DNA of 59,878 bases from Robiginitomaculum sp. (lineage in GTDB: Bacteria; Pseudomonadota; Alphaproteobacteria; Caulobacterales; Maricaulaceae). The stretch spans positions 1 to 59,878 of the forward strand of contig JAESTZ010000057.1 of the NCBI GenBank assembly GCA_016763315.1, written 5' to 3'. This document shows positions 36,016 through 59,878 of the stretch, in pieces; position 1 is the first letter of the stretch; each line of letters opens with the position of its first letter. The notes below the pieces were generated by a model, which saw nothing but the letters and a program-made list of their open reading frames with translations, did not search any database and was not told where the DNA came from. The position numbers and the translations under genes are program-made.

Positions 36016-36574
36016 TGTTTTCTCCTTCGAATCTCTAAATTTCAATCTAGCGTAATCTTCTTCATTTGTTTTAATTTTTAAGTGCTAAAAAAAACAAGTT
36101 TTCCAATTATAGGTTTCCCCGGTGGATAAATCTAAAAATGGCTTAGCAATACAAACTTGTTTTTCTACAATCATTCCTAGCAATCACCAGCAAAACCCAT
36201 GTTTTGTAGAGTTCTATAAGTATTAACAATGTCAAATAGCCGCAAACAGATAGCTTATGACCTGCTGCAGAACCATTATAGCAGGTGGTGACAAAGCGAG
36301 TGTGTTTGAAACTTATCCACGTCAATCAAAGTTGAATAAGGGTCAATGAGGGTGCAATCTTTGCCAACGGATCCTCGTTTAACCTAGCTTCTTTACCAAT
36401 GATTGCTAACAAGGGTTTGGCCGCTGACCCTTATTCACCCTTAAGGGAATTATTGTTTTAATTTCAGGGATTCTGTTTTCCGCCATTCGCTTTTGCACCA
36501 CCGCAAAGTAAGAATAGCTGGTATGACGATTTATTGTTTTTTACGGCAAACCACTTGCCGATAAGCCTGATTTG
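36016..36574. other. 559-bp non-coding gap between peroxiredoxin and YqgE genes
   Basis: No credible gene on either strand. It holds repeat copy D (36114-36228), a 6-bp hairpin CCTGCT/AGCAGG (36261-36286), a GAAACTTATCCACG stretch, and a long-range 11-bp inverted repeat GAATAAGGGTC (36334-36344) with GACCCTTATTC (36426-36436), separated by 81 nt. Two DnaA-box-like TTATCCAC sites occur (36122 region and 36312), too few to call an origin. A regulatory RNA is possible. Confidence 0.5.
36114..36228 (+). repeat. Intergenic repeat family 2, copy D
   Basis: Begins TTTCCCCGGTGGATAAA and ends GTATTAACA, 115 bp apart. The same two ends and a similar interior occur 116 bp apart at 59763-59878. The last 33 bp match at 23 of 33 positions. 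Flanking AAAAACAAGTTT and AAACTTGTTTTT (near 36093 and 36150) form an imperfectly nested hairpin. It could be a small RNA gene or a mobile repeat. Confidence 0.5.
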
Positions 36575-55152: not shown

Positions 55153-55240
55153 GTTTCCTGTAAATTTACACAAAAAACTTGGCAAATGGGTACATTAGCA
55201 GTTACGAATACAAGAAACAGTATTTCGCAAAGGGCTATAT

Positions 55241-56278
55241 ATGAACTGGCAAAATCAGATTTTGGAAATTGAAGAGCTGGAAGACGCTGAATTTGATGCA
55301 GGGCTAATATCTCGCATGCAGGCAAATTCCTCTCTTTCCTTAAACCGCCCTATACGGTTTTCAACTCCAACTTTTAGGGAATTTGAATCAAATGAGCTTT
55401 CCGGTTGCGGCAAAAATTCATTTCCGGCATTTTCTATAACTGCCGGCGGTTGCGCGCTTAATTGCGATCATTGTCAGAAGAAAATTCTCGAGCCAATGAT
55501 CCCTGCCACCAAGCCAGAAATGCTCGACCAAAAAGTCCGCGACATGGTTTTAATGCAAGACTTACAAGGATTTTTGCTGTCCGGCGGCTCCAATAAGCGC
55601 AACGAGATTAGATATGAACGATACTTGCCGGTGGTCGAGAAACTAAAGCATGATTTTCCACACTTGCAAATTGCCATTCATACAGCTTTGCTTGATGAAG
55701 CAGCAGCCCAGCGCATGGAAGACGCCGGCGTAGATAGCGCGATGATGGATATGATCGGAGCCCAAGAAACCATCAAACAAGTATATAAACTTGATCGTCC
55801 GGTAGCTGATTTTGAAGCTACTTTAGCGGCGCTTACTTCCACCAACCTCAAAGTCACGCCACATATTGTGATCGGCCTACATTATGGCAAATTGCTTGGC
55901 GAGCAAGAAGCTCTGGACATTATCGCCAGATATGATGTTCACGCACTGGTATTGGTGGTTATCATGCCATTTTATTCCAAACCCGGTACATTTGATACTC
56001 CCTCGACCAAAGATGTAGGCGAAATATTCTTGGCGGCAAGAAAGCGACTGCCAAATAAACAAGTATTACTTGGCTGCGCCCGCCCGCCGGGCATGCACAA
56101 GCGGGTAACCGATGCCTATGCAGTAATGGCTGGTCTCGACGGCATTGCCTTTCCTGCCGATGGTGCTGTAGCAGTTTCCAAGATCATTGGCAGGCCATCA
56201 CATCAAGAACATGCCTGTTGCGCTATCAAAATCGGCGGCAGCCAGTCGGCGCAGACCTCGGCCACTTGCGCCGCATGA
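55241..56278 (+). CDS. lipS1: Radical SAM protein, LipS1-like lipoyl synthase subunit
   Basis: A 345-residue radical SAM enzyme. The CxxxCxxC cluster ligands are C71, C75 and C78 in AGGCALNCDHCQKK. Further Cys occur in LLGCARPPG (about 283) and CC in EHACCAIK near the end, which could bind a second cluster as sulfur donor. Assignment to LipS1 rests on order and partners: with LipT, LipS2 and sLpl(AB) it matches the gene set described for the alternative lipoate pathway, in which LipS1 and LipS2 together insert two sulfurs into octanoyl groups. Ribosome site AAAGGG. LipS1 versus LipS2 could be reversed. Confidence 0.75.
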   Translation: MNWQNQILEIEELEDAEFDAGLISRMQANSSLSLNRPIRFSTPTFREFESNELSGCGKNSFPAFSITAGGCALNCDHCQKKILEPMIPATKPEMLDQKVRDMVLMQDLQGFLLSGGSNKRNEIRYERYLPVVEKLKHDFPHLQIAIHTALLDEAAAQRMEDAGVDSAMMDMIGAQETIKQVYKLDRPVADFEATLAALTSTNLKVTPHIVIGLHYGKLLGEQEALDIIARYDVHALVLVVIMPFYSKPGTFDTPSTKDVGEIFLAARKRLPNKQVLLGCARPPGMHKRVTDAYAVMAGLDGIAFPADGAVAVSKIIGRPSHQEHACCAIKIGGSQSAQTSATCAA

Positions 56279-57387
56279 ACGAGCAACCGGACATTTTAGT
56301 GCTGGGACTTGGCCCTGCCGGTGCTTGCGCGGCTGAGATCTGTGCACAAGCCGGATTATCAGTGCTGGCCATAGATAAGAAGAACCAGCCGGGCGCACCG
56401 ATACAATGCGCTGAATTTGTTCCGGCAATGATCGGATCCGAGGTTGATTCTTTGCACAAAACCACCATCCAGAATATCCGCTCAATGCAAACTTTTGTCG
56501 AAGATCAGCCAGCAGATATTATGGCAGAATTTCCCGGAAGAATGATTGACCGGCGAAACTTCGACAAGGAGCTTGGCTTACGAGCAATAAGAGCCGGAGC
56601 AAAATTGGAATATGAAATAAAAGCACAAGACATTTCAACCGGCGCCGATGTGGAGCTTGCCGACGGACGCTTGATTTCAGCAAAAGTTCTAATTGGAGCC
56701 GATGGGCCAAAATCACTAGTTGGTTATGGCATGGGCTCGTCAAATACTGAATTTCTGGATACACGGCAAATCAAAGTAGCCTTGTTGCGTCCGTTTGAAA
56801 GTACAGATATTTTTCTAAAAAGCTCGATTGTAGGAGGCTATGGCTGGGCCTTTCCTAAAGGTGATACGGTCAATATCGGCCTTGGTGTACATCCCGATCA
56901 CCGAAAGATGCTAAAGCCACTATTAAATGAGCTGCACCAAGAACTGATTAACTGCGGGCGCGCAGCAGAAGAAATTATAAGCCATACTGGCGGTTTGATC
57001 CCTGCCGGTGGCATGATTAAACCGTGGCGCATTGTCGGGCCAACCCTGTGCCTATTAGCTGGTGATGCAGCTGGTTTAACCAACCCGATAACCGGAGCCG
57101 GAATTAACTCGGCAGTAATTAGCGGTAAGCTAGCTGGCGAAGCGGCGGTACGCTATCTCGCTGATCCGCAGCAAACACAAGCTGGCGAAGACTACCAAGA
57201 AGACCTCGAAGATTTATTCGAAGCTTCTTTATCAAGAGCTGTTGCTCACAGAAAAAGACTTGTTACTTACTGGCGCGAAAACAACAATCTTTCGCCAGAA
57301 CAATTACGTTCTGGCTGGATTGCCTATGACCAATATTGGCAAGCGCCAACCCCATCATCATTGGAGAAAACCCCATGTCCTGCTTGA
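56275..57387 (+). CDS. lipT: FAD-dependent oxidoreductase of the geranylgeranyl reductase family (LipT-like)
   Basis: A 370-residue flavoprotein. FAD-binding GLGPAGA at residues 11-17, then AIDKK, CAEFVP, and a C-terminal GD motif LLAGDAAGLTNPITGAGIN (about 262-280). Family members reduce double bonds in lipids; the LipT of lipS1-lipT-lipS2-slpl(AB) clusters has this fold and is thought to supply electrons. The ATG at 56275 overlaps the lipS1 stop; upstream extension lies inside lipS1. It overlaps lipS2 by 13 nt. Confidence 0.8.
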   Translation: MNEQPDILVLGLGPAGACAAEICAQAGLSVLAIDKKNQPGAPIQCAEFVPAMIGSEVDSLHKTTIQNIRSMQTFVEDQPADIMAEFPGRMIDRRNFDKELGLRAIRAGAKLEYEIKAQDISTGADVELADGRLISAKVLIGADGPKSLVGYGMGSSNTEFLDTRQIKVALLRPFESTDIFLKSSIVGGYGWAFPKGDTVNIGLGVHPDHRKMLKPLLNELHQELINCGRAAEEIISHTGGLIPAGGMIKPWRIVGPTLCLLAGDAAGLTNPITGAGINSAVISGKLAGEAAVRYLADPQQTQAGEDYQEDLEDLFEASLSRAVAHRKRLVTYWRENNNLSPEQLRSGWIAYDQYWQAPTPSSLEKTPCPA

Positions 57388-58670
57388 AACCAGAAGGCGC
57401 AAGCCCAAGAGAAACATCTGCTGATGATCCAGACTTTAACGCCTTTGATGTGATGGAGCCACGCAAGCCAAACATCACCCCAAAAAACTTGCGTAATGGC
57501 GGGCGGGTTAAAACTGATGACATGCCACCAACTGGGCTTTATCTGCCGAACAACAATATCCAAACGCCGAATATGACCTCGCCAGAATATGTGCAGCTCT
57601 CCACAGCGGCGGCTTTGACCCTTGGTATTATGCCGGGCAAAATGCATCGCTGCGAGTGCACAAGGTGCCTGAATATCTTGCTGACTTACCCCGAAGGTTG
57701 CCGGGCGAATTGTGCTTATTGCGGTTTGGCAAGACACCGCGAAGCAGATCGTGACTATGCCGATCGCAATTTCATTCGCGTTGACTGGCCAAGCGTTCCG
57801 ATGGATCAAATTATCGATATTGTTGCCAAAGATCCAGAAAATTCACCATTTCATCGCATGTGTATTTCAATGATCACTCACCCGAAATCCGATGATGATA
57901 CGGTAACTGTCTTAAAGAAATGGACTGCAAAGATTGACCCGTCGGCAATTGCAATCTCGATCCTTTCAAACCCGACTACCATGGGTCGCTCCAATGTTGA
58001 GGAATTACATGAACTTGGCAGTGATATTTTCACCGTCGCCATTGATGCCGCAACTCCTGAGCTGTTCGACCGAACCCGTGGCAAAGGCGTTCAAAGCCCG
58101 CATACATGGAAGAAATACTGGGAAGTTTTGCTTGATGCCAAAGATGTTTTCGGCCCACAAAAGTTTGGCGCACATATTATCGTCGGCATGGGCGAAACCG
58201 AATATGAAATTTTAGCATTGGTCGAGCAGTTGGTGCAAATGGGCGGACACAGCCACATGTTTTGCTTTTATCCGGAAAAAGGCTCGTTGATGGATCATTT
58301 ACCGGCCACTCCACGCGATCAATGGCGACGGGTACAATTAGGCAGGTATTTGCTGGATTATTGCGGCGCCAAAGTCGCTCACATGAAATTTGATAGCGAA
58401 GGCCGGATCATTGATTTTGGCCTGCCAAAAGCCGAATTAGATATGATCATTGATACCGGAATTGCCTTTCGCACGTCCGGTTGTCCGGGTAAATTTGCTG
58501 ATGATATTTCGGCTTGTGATCGCCCCTATGGTGATAGCCCGCCATCAGATATCGCCTCTTATCCGTTTCAACCAAAAGACGTTGATTTGCGCCGGATCAG
58601 ACAGCAATTAGACATGGAAAAGCCCGGCGAAACTTACGAGGAAGGCGATGATCTGGAAGACTGGAAATGA
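57375..58670 (+). CDS. lipS2: Radical SAM protein, LipS2-like lipoyl synthase subunit
   Basis: A 431-residue radical SAM enzyme with CxxxCxxC at C109, C113, C116 (EGCRANCAYCGLAR). A nearby upstream cysteine group, C93, C95, C98 (HRCECTRCLN), may hold an auxiliary cluster. A C-terminal cysteine is in TSGCPGKFADDISACDRP. I chose ATG 57375, with GGAG 9 nt upstream, since it fits overlap with lipT. Together with LipS1 it would form the lipoyl synthase; each is expected to insert one sulfur. Confidence 0.75.
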   Translation: MSCLKPEGASPRETSADDPDFNAFDVMEPRKPNITPKNLRNGGRVKTDDMPPTGLYLPNNNIQTPNMTSPEYVQLSTAAALTLGIMPGKMHRCECTRCLNILLTYPEGCRANCAYCGLARHREADRDYADRNFIRVDWPSVPMDQIIDIVAKDPENSPFHRMCISMITHPKSDDDTVTVLKKWTAKIDPSAIAISILSNPTTMGRSNVEELHELGSDIFTVAIDAATPELFDRTRGKGVQSPHTWKKYWEVLLDAKDVFGPQKFGAHIIVGMGETEYEILALVEQLVQMGGHSHMFCFYPEKGSLMDHLPATPRDQWRRVQLGRYLLDYCGAKVAHMKFDSEGRIIDFGLPKAELDMIIDTGIAFRTSGCPGKFADDISACDRPYGDSPPSDIASYPFQPKDVDLRRIRQQLDMEKPGETYEEGDDLEDWK

Positions 58671-59737
58671 ACAAACCAGAATTTCGTGTAATTGATACCG
58701 GCTTACGTTCTGGTCGTGAAAATATTGCCTTTGATGCAGCAATGATCGAAGCCCACCAAACAGCTGCGATTGGCGACAGTATTCGCTTTATTCATTTTAA
58801 GCCTTGTGCATTGGTTGGCCGTCATCAGGACTTAAGCCGCGAGCTAAAATTGAATTATTGCACCGACAACAATATCCAGACCGTGCGTCGGATCACTGGC
58901 GGTGGAGCGATCTATATGGATCAGGGGCAGATAGGTTGGGCATTGGTGTTTTCGCGCAAGACATTGAATATTTCCGATCTTGGTGAGCTTACCAAAGCTA
59001 TTTGTGAAGCCGCCGCCCACGGCCTGTCCAAGCTGGGCATAGAAGTCCAATTCCGACCGCGCAATGACATAGAGGTCGGTGGTCGCAAAATCGGTGGTTC
59101 CGGCGGCTTTTTTGATGGCAATACCTTGTTCTTTCAAGGAACTGTACTGATAGATACTGATCCGTCTGTAATGATGTCGGCATTAAATGTTGCCAAAACC
59201 AAATTGCAAAAGCGCCAACTAGATGATGCAAGCACAAGAGTAACCACCTTAAAGCAATTACTAGAAACTACCCCTACGATAGAGGCTATCAAACAAACAT
59301 TACTAACCGGCTTTGAAGAAAAGCTGGGAATTTCTCTGCGGCATGAAAACCCTTACCCCGAAGAAGAGCATCTGGCGAAACAGTATTTCGATGAAGAAAT
59401 TGGCCAAGATGATTATGTCCACGAGATCGACCGCGCCGATGCCCAAGCGGGCGTGTTACACGGCTCCCATACCGGCGCCGGTGGTACGGTCGAAGCCTTT
59501 GTGCGACTTGAGGGTAATAATGATGAGCGCTTACGCGAAGTATTGCTTACCGGCGATTTTTTCGTAACTCCGCCACGAATTGTACTTGATCTTGAAAGTC
59601 ATTTACGCCGGGTTGAAGTTTGCGAGATAAGTCAAGAAGTACAAGAATTTTTTGCAAAATCAGAAGTGGATTTGCTTAGTATCTCCCCTGATGACTTTGT
59701 CAGTGCTATCGAAAATGCCCTAAAACACACACCTTAA
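58667..59737 (+). CDS. slpl(AB): Lipoate:protein ligase of the fused LplA-LplB type, sLpl(AB)
   Basis: A 356-residue ligase that activates octanoate or lipoate as an acyl-AMP and attaches it to a lysine of the target protein. The ATP/acyl-AMP motif RRITGGGAIYMDQGQIGW (about 74-91), catalytic Lys K141 in GGRKIGGSGGFF, and a C-terminal accessory domain (about 240-356) fused in one chain are visible. The ATG overlaps the lipS2 stop. No lbpA or E2 gene follows within 140 bp of the window edge. Confidence 0.9.
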   Translation: MNKPEFRVIDTGLRSGRENIAFDAAMIEAHQTAAIGDSIRFIHFKPCALVGRHQDLSRELKLNYCTDNNIQTVRRITGGGAIYMDQGQIGWALVFSRKTLNISDLGELTKAICEAAAHGLSKLGIEVQFRPRNDIEVGGRKIGGSGGFFDGNTLFFQGTVLIDTDPSVMMSALNVAKTKLQKRQLDDASTRVTTLKQLLETTPTIEAIKQTLLTGFEEKLGISLRHENPYPEEEHLAKQYFDEEIGQDDYVHEIDRADAQAGVLHGSHTGAGGTVEAFVRLEGNNDERLREVLLTGDFFVTPPRIVLDLESHLRRVEVCEISQEVQEFFAKSEVDLLSISPDDFVSAIENALKHTP

Positions 59738-59762: not shown

Positions 59763-59878
59763 TTTCCCCGGTGGATAAAATTTAAAAAAGCTCGGCGAGC
59801 AAAAACCATTGTTTCGCCAAAAGCTTTATAAAACTATGAGAAAAGCCCACATTTCATTAAGTTTGCTACGTATTAACA
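59763..59878 (+). repeat. Intergenic repeat family 2, copy E (cut by window edge)
   Basis: Starts TTTCCCCGGTGGATAAA 26 nt after the ligase gene and ends GTATTAACA at the last base of the window, 116 bp, against 115 bp for copy D at 36114-36228. Small hairpin GCTCG/CGAGC inside. It probably continues beyond the window. Confidence 0.5.

Follow-up and report, generated by a model that had tools for sequence, protein, structure and literature searches.

A lipoate assembly operon encoded apart from its probable sulfur-oxidation partner LbpA in a Robiginitomaculum genome

Introduction

The lipoate-binding protein LbpA of sHdr-type sulfur oxidation is reported to be loaded with free octanoate or lipoate by the ligase sLpl(AB) (PMC10332631). 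According to the same source, Hyphomicrobium denitrificans deleted for slpl(AB) has its LbpA2 in the apo form only and forms no sulfite, and the ligase of sulfur oxidizers did not work, in the experiments described there, on lipoyl proteins whose organisms lack sHdr-LbpA. In Thermococcus kodakarensis, sulfur is inserted by LipS2 at C8 and then by LipS1 at C6 (PMC9585515). Most bacteria with LipS1/S2 are stated to be without sHdr, and 42% to have it (Tanabe et al., 2023; PMC10332631). Cao et al. (2018; PMC6067878) describe the maturation genes as placed strictly in the hdr/lbpA operon in all Proteobacteria analysed there, and also mention genes elsewhere in the genome. Here we examine the operon lipS1-lipT-lipS2-slpl(AB) of Robiginitomaculum sp. 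(assembly GCA_016763315.1). The window analysed is the forward strand of contig JAESTZ010000057.1, positions 1 to 59,878, at its full length of 59,878 nt. A first-pass annotation of this window had assigned the operon to the sLpl(AB)-LipS1/S2 pathway and, with no sulfur genes beside it, had left the choice between shdr genes just past the edge and another target. Neither turned out to be the case: lbpA and the shdr genes form a separate locus of the same genome. Sequence comparison makes it highly probable that the operon belongs to the known pathway and, encoded in trans, supplies LbpA with lipoate for sulfur oxidation by sHdr.

Results

The four genes lie head to tail on the plus strand, with the positions and overlaps first described for them. 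lipS1 (55241..56278) shares 4 nt (ATGA) with lipT (56275..57387, ATG at 56275), lipT overlaps lipS2 (57375..58670, ATG at 57375) by 13 nt, and lipS2 shares another ATGA (4 nt) with slpl(AB) (58667..59737). LipS1 and LipS2 are radical S-adenosylmethionine (SAM) proteins, predicted to insert sulfur at C6 and C8, respectively. LipT is an oxidoreductase of the geranylgeranyl-reductase-like type that binds flavin adenine dinucleotide, and the presumed electron donor. sLpl(AB) is a predicted lipoate/octanoate:protein ligase with an LplA domain (residues 17-217) followed by an LplB domain (residues 284-352).

The radical SAM and ligase families were judged against 18,950 NCBIfam models. In agreement with the initial pathway assignment, the radical SAM pair is closest to LipS1 and LipS2, both scoring under the naming cut-offs: NF053742 is the best family for LipS1 (6e-56, 190 bits; next family 7e-7) and NF053743 for LipS2 (1.9e-53, 182 bits; next family 9e-9). 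LipT falls in the geranylgeranyl-reductase superfamily TIGR02032 (1.8e-52, above cut-off). The ligase covers the whole LplA/B catalytic domain PF21948 (2.5e-44, above cut-off), and its C-terminus matches the LplB family NF053749 (5.7e-12, 46 bits). Among solved structures, phmmer matched it to lipoate ligases including 1vqz, 2ars and 3r07, and subunits A and C of the archaeal bipartite ligase 3r07 match its two halves. The first-pass annotation had proposed such an LplA/LplB fusion and had named a grouping with biotin ligases as the finding that would speak against it. The biotin-ligase family PF03099 reaches 21.9 bits with slpl(AB) versus 58.4 bits with another protein of the same genome, and this weak score, with the LplA and LplB matches, rules out a biotin ligase.

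The catalytic residues of LipS1 and the motif and candidate ligand cysteines of LipS2 are conserved throughout 13 sequences, the window's and those of 12 relatives. In LipS1 these are C71xxxC75xxC78, H208, C279, C326 and C327, and in LipS2 C109xxxC113xxC116 and the candidate auxiliary cysteines C163, C370 and C381, together with an extra CxCxxC (C93, C95 and C98) ahead of the radical-SAM motif. LipS1 and LipS2 had no sequence match among solved structures at E 0.001. AlphaFold2 models from five-sequence alignments (mean pLDDT, the predicted local distance difference test, 42.7 for LipS2 and 36.4 for LipS1) were too poor for fold searches and were not used for them. Plasmid records gave 402 matches to LipS2, none covering more than 80% of the query, and nothing for LipS1; the 20 LipS2 matches listed carry the annotation MSMEG_0568 radical SAM protein.

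The sulfur genes for which a search outside the window had been advised are present on contigs C89 and C25 (dsrE-shdrC1-B1-A-hyp-C2-B2 plus lbpA; C89:5507-10809 and C25:1-1807). A probe search with a relative's shdr operon located dsrE3, shdrC1, B1, A, hyp and C2 at the end of C89. C25 starts within shdrB2, whose opening codons are cut off by the contig end, and continues with a small hypothetical gene and lbpA (C25:1370-1807). The latter encodes a second GcvH-like protein (PF01597, 102 bits) with an ESGK lysine and cysteines near both ends; N- and C-terminal cysteines are reported for LbpA and described as lacking in GcvH (PMC6067878). The 5.5 kb to the left on C89 and most of the 9 kb to the right on C25 hold the genes that also border the only shdr locus of the closest relative, the metagenome-assembled genome (MAG) NORP30; the open reading frames (ORFs) directly behind lbpA on C25 differ from NORP30. 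Because the flanks match that locus, C89 is very probably joined to C25 in the chromosome; the lip cassette does not lie beside them. A position of shdr directly past the window edge is rejected, since both shdr flanks are known and neither holds the lip cassette. With lbpA and shdr encoded at another locus, there is therefore no orphan system and no new target is needed. A lipX-like glutamine amidotransferase gene lies on C15 (L058:6977-7675), apart from both operons, next to a gene that by eye resembles topA.

The genome also encodes other predicted lipoylation enzymes and lipoyl proteins. A search for lipA and lipB had likewise been advised: lipA is on C113 (369 bits, above cut-off), and a 241-residue protein on C79, found by a search for the LplA/LipB family rather than with a LipB model, was taken as LipB. 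Proteins resembling the E1-beta and E2 components of pyruvate dehydrogenase (PDH), with lipoyl domains, are encoded on C45, further E2s on C5 and C115, and GcvH on C57. The same genome searched with PF00364, PF21948, PF01597 and PF02754 gave only the ligase itself on the window contig, and the window is to this extent free of LbpA and 2-oxoacid dehydrogenase genes, as first stated.

The association with sulfur oxidation extends to relatives. We surveyed 200 genomes drawn evenly from the order, our own included, at thresholds of E 1e-30 for LipS2 and 1e-60 for sHdrB1. LipS2 occurs in ten and sHdrB1 in eight, all eight within the ten (Fisher 8e-13, a value that ignores kinship, the ten genomes belonging to four genera). 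lbpA, sought in the LipS2 genomes only, was present in every one of the ten. A scan of named genomes gave five matches, four Robiginitomaculum MAGs and Alphaproteobacteria bacterium Vin_25. The layout was compared in 13 distinct genomes; the fifth named match (L032) did not enter the comparison, since slpl(AB), lipX, an ORF on the opposite strand and dsrE3 are all that its 3.9-kb contig carries.

All 13 cassettes, each found via LipS2 or the ligase, hold lipS1, lipS2 and the ligase together, and lipT had no match in two (G018 and G082; loci L095 and L098). The lip and shdr-lbpA genes form a single run in seven genomes (S139_58, which is G008, NORP17, Vin_25, G047, G193, G082 and G167) and are apart in three, our own, NORP30 and G018, the last with the two about 26 kb apart on one contig. 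In G077 both lie near contig ends and the layout could not be judged. NORP30 (locus L030; LipS1 96.5% identical) shares the exporter on the left and has lip and shdr on different contigs; to the right of its lip genes are an M28-like peptidase and an RNase R-like gene (named by eye), which in our genome are on C114. S139_58 (L031) and NORP17 (L033), with LipS1 91 and 87% and LipS2 92 and 90% identical to those of the window, have lip-lipX-dsrE-shdr-lbpA in one run, unlike the window genome; in NORP17 two ORFs on the opposite strand are inserted between lipX and dsrE.

A palindrome, ATTAG-N6-CTAAT, recurs ahead of both operons. It was first spotted upstream of dsrE3 in our genome, NORP30 and G018; the 13 genomes were then searched for it, at 9 or more of 10 bases, across the 150 nt ahead of the start codon. 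It precedes lipS1 in eight, dsrE3 in ten and both in eight; it is missing at lipS1 in S139_58, NORP17, G012, G106 and G082, and at dsrE3 in the last three. In the window the operator-like copy ATTAGCAGTTACGAAT (55194..55209, plus strand, 9/10) begins 47 nt before the start of lipS1, and the dsrE3-shdr operon of the same genome has a perfect copy at C89:5402-5417. Perfect copies number 12 in the 405 kb of sequence fetched, whereas 60 first-order Markov randomizations gave 0.27 on average, and 11 of the 12 precede lipS1 or dsrE3. The twelfth, in Vin_25, lies behind the gene of a BigR-like ArsR repressor (91 bits versus a cut-off of 155) and ahead of a BLH-type sulfur-transferase gene. At L034:18807-20852, directly downstream of lbpA, genes for a BigR-like repressor, a BLH-type sulfur transferase and a YeeE/TsuA-like transporter were noted, the perfect palindrome lying between those of the repressor and the transferase. 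Allowing at most one mismatch, 36 copies were found (mean 12.8, maximum 22 in 20 randomizations), and such a site lies no more than 150 nt upstream of 25 of 374 ORFs of at least 100 residues. The window alone contains two matches versus 2.36 expected, which is chance level, and the weight of the lipS1 site therefore comes from its recurrence across genomes; our genome and NORP30 are similar upstream of lipS1 in any case. In G012 and G106, in which no sHdr was found, 9/10 copies stand ahead of other ORFs of the locus. The H. denitrificans repressors sHdrR and SoxR are reported to bind fragments upstream of lipS1 and dsrE3C (PMC12423496; PMC10451225). As the palindrome precedes both lipS1 and dsrE3 in 8 of the 13 genomes, it suggests that the lip and shdr operons are controlled jointly.

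The window is the whole of contig C31 of a genome of 2.52 Mb in 122 contigs (92.3% complete). To the left of lipS1 is a TetR-HlyD-ABC-ABC exporter-like operon, an arrangement named by eye from the ORFs and consistent with the drug-type exporter first proposed. On the right the contig ends 141 nt past slpl(AB), inside a copy of a dispersed repeat that starts at 59763 (59763..59878), and for this reason the absence of sulfur genes on that side is uninformative by itself. The repeat is about 300-500 nt long and intergenic, and matches at least 40 places in the genome, a lower bound from the scoring of 40 of 103 candidates. A diverged copy (68%) lies at 36115-36409 of the window and a further one at L030:11098-11627, and several other contigs of the genome begin in it. 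A search of Rfam with the repeat region gave nothing above a gathering score.

The last 116 nt of the window (59763-59878) are 100% identical to C114:4892-5007, and other copies match them at 69-82% over 111-122 nt. Beyond this stretch, C114 carries the genes that come after lip in NORP30. On its other side (L062:1029-5007) there are three ORFs that by eye are flagellin-like, where NORP30 has the lip cassette, and 5.6 kb of other sequence precedes the NORP30 right-flank genes on C114. The 116-nt identity and the shared downstream genes indicate that the lip contig probably continues into the peptidase region of C114, in a NORP30-like order. The flagellin-like ORFs would then result from a rearrangement or from misjoining at the repeat. 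The 5.6 kb of other sequence had been a reason to think that the window contig does not continue as in NORP30; this was dropped after the 116-nt identity.

Discussion

The apparent orphan lipoate pathway becomes a normal one once the rest of the genome is considered. Following the published systems, sLpl(AB) would activate octanoate (or lipoate) with adenosine triphosphate and attach it to the LbpA lysine, LipS2 would add the sulfur at C8 and LipS1 then that at C6, with LipT probably supplying the electrons. Holo-LbpA would serve the cytoplasmic sHdr complex, which is expected to convert sulfane sulfur to sulfite. The lip and dsrE-shdr-lbpA operons, although at separate places, would probably answer to one sulfur-responsive ArsR-type (BigR/sHdrR-like) repressor acting via ATTAG-N6-CTAAT. 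LipA and the LipB-like protein presumably lipoylate GcvH and the dehydrogenases for pyruvate and other 2-oxoacids.

Several observations weigh against this assignment. LipS1 scores 190 bits against an NCBIfam cut-off of 230, LipS2 182 against 270 and LplB 46 against 65, and LipS2 is above its cut-off in none of the 200 genomes of the order, all ten LipS2 proteins being below it. The cut-off is a threshold for naming and not a biochemical feature, and with such scores automatic naming would probably miss all three. The C370 and C381 of LipS2 are spaced as C-x10-C where the archaeal equivalents by order form CxxC. Thioalkalivibrio lip genes expressed in E. coli are reported to have given only the first sulfur (mercaptooctanoyl) on LbpA (PMC10332631). 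On C89 the sHdr hyp gene (L055:9170-10062) is in two overlapping frames; it is a single frame of 297 residues in NORP30 and S139_58, and the split reflects either an assembly error or a real frameshift. The palindrome was picked from three genomes, and omitting these leaves it at lipS1 in five of ten and at dsrE3 in seven of ten; moreover, 24 imperfect copies are at various places in the 405 kb, lipS1 and dsrE3 sites among them but also many others.

Being cut off from the sulfur genes, the cassette might instead serve 2-oxoacid dehydrogenases, GcvH or an as yet unknown lipoyl protein. The separate layout in three of the 13 genomes, the PDH-like proteins, two further E2s and GcvH of this genome, and the reported occurrence of LipS1/S2 beyond sulfur oxidizers (PMC10332631) would fit such a role. 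We consider it improbable, as lipA and a lipB-like gene are already present for the dehydrogenases and GcvH, lbpA accompanies LipS2 in ten of ten genomes, and the lip and shdr promoters have the palindrome in common in eight of 13. In addition, the ligase of a sulfur oxidizer is reported to be blind to lipoyl proteins from organisms without sHdr-LbpA (PMC10332631).

A still smaller probability attaches to the split being an artefact of assembly or binning, with lip and shdr truly adjacent. The 122 contigs and the end of the lip contig in a repeat invite this explanation; against it, both shdr flanks are present and largely match NORP30, whose lip cassette is on another contig before other genes, the last 116 nt of the window equal the C114 stretch that precedes the genes found after lip in NORP30, and G018 has both loci about 26 kb apart on a single contig. 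Least probable is that the radical SAM pair performs other chemistry, e.g. another sulfur insertion on LbpA, as the sub-threshold scores and the extra conserved CxCxxC of LipS2 could suggest, given that the E-values of the LipS1 and LipS2 families are better than those of the next ones by more than 40 orders of magnitude, that the ligand spacing of LipS1 matches the tested archaeal enzyme (PMC9585515), and that lipS1, lipS2 and the ligase stay together in 13 of 13 cassettes, found via LipS2 or the ligase.

The preferred assignment, lipoylation of LbpA, may extend beyond sHdr. In G012 and G106 (100% and 98% complete), sHdr sought via sHdrB1 and the CCG domain was not found; in G047, a member of the same genus, the same search gave the three expected sHdr matches. 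G012 (L091:1060-18578) and G106 (L092) each gave a single CCG-domain protein, which is HmcF/DsrK-like and encoded to the right of the lip cassette; in G012 its operon also encodes the small and large subunits of a NiFe hydrogenase and a TmcC/HmcE-like cytochrome. To the left of the cassette are lbpA, dsrE3, a FadL-like gene, tusA, dsrE2 and a ligase fused to DUF116; the names come from family searches of the G012 proteins, and the ORFs of G106 stand in the same order. The fused protein is a second lipoate ligase (LplA plus a weak LplB) near lbpA, at L091:1060-2682 and L092:1227-2849, the family search having been made for L091 only. These loci suggest a use of LbpA outside sHdr. One tentative possibility is that the LipS1/S2 cassette goes with LbpA and not with sHdr as such, that LbpA can partner other enzymes of the disulfide type, and that in these two genomes it carries sulfur to or from a hydrogenase-linked reductase. 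Searches of an open-licence literature library yielded no link between LbpA and a hydrogenase without sHdr. G012 and G106 are natural material for asking what LbpA does outside sHdr.

Proteobacteria can thus have the lip genes parted from shdr-lbpA while a shared operator is apparently kept, and a single genus includes both layouts (one run in S139_58, separate in our genome and G018). As Cao et al. (2018; PMC6067878) describe strict placement in the same operon, a lineage with a split layout is a modest addition. Among the known systems, H. denitrificans, an alphaproteobacterium with sHdr and LbpA, has the same four genes in the same order, lipS1-lipT-lipS2-slpl(AB) (PMC10332631). They lie there beside shdr-lbpA, whereas in the window genome they are at a separate locus and the lipX-like gene is on a third contig. 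LipS1 and LipS2 of T. kodakarensis share the CX3CX2C motif with the window proteins, whose N-terminal parts are longer. LipS1 has the matching histidine and three cysteines, at offsets from C78 of +130 (H208), +201 (C279) and +248/+249 (C326/C327), five or six residues longer than the +125, +196 and +242/+243 reported for the archaeal enzyme (PMC9585515). In LipS2 the offsets from C116 are +47 (C163), +254 (C370) and +265 (C381) and the archaeal ones +39, +230 and +233; the archaeal protein is described with only three cysteines beyond the radical-SAM motif (PMC9585515), and that of the window differs from it by the additional C93/C95/C98 and by the wider spacing of its last cysteine pair.

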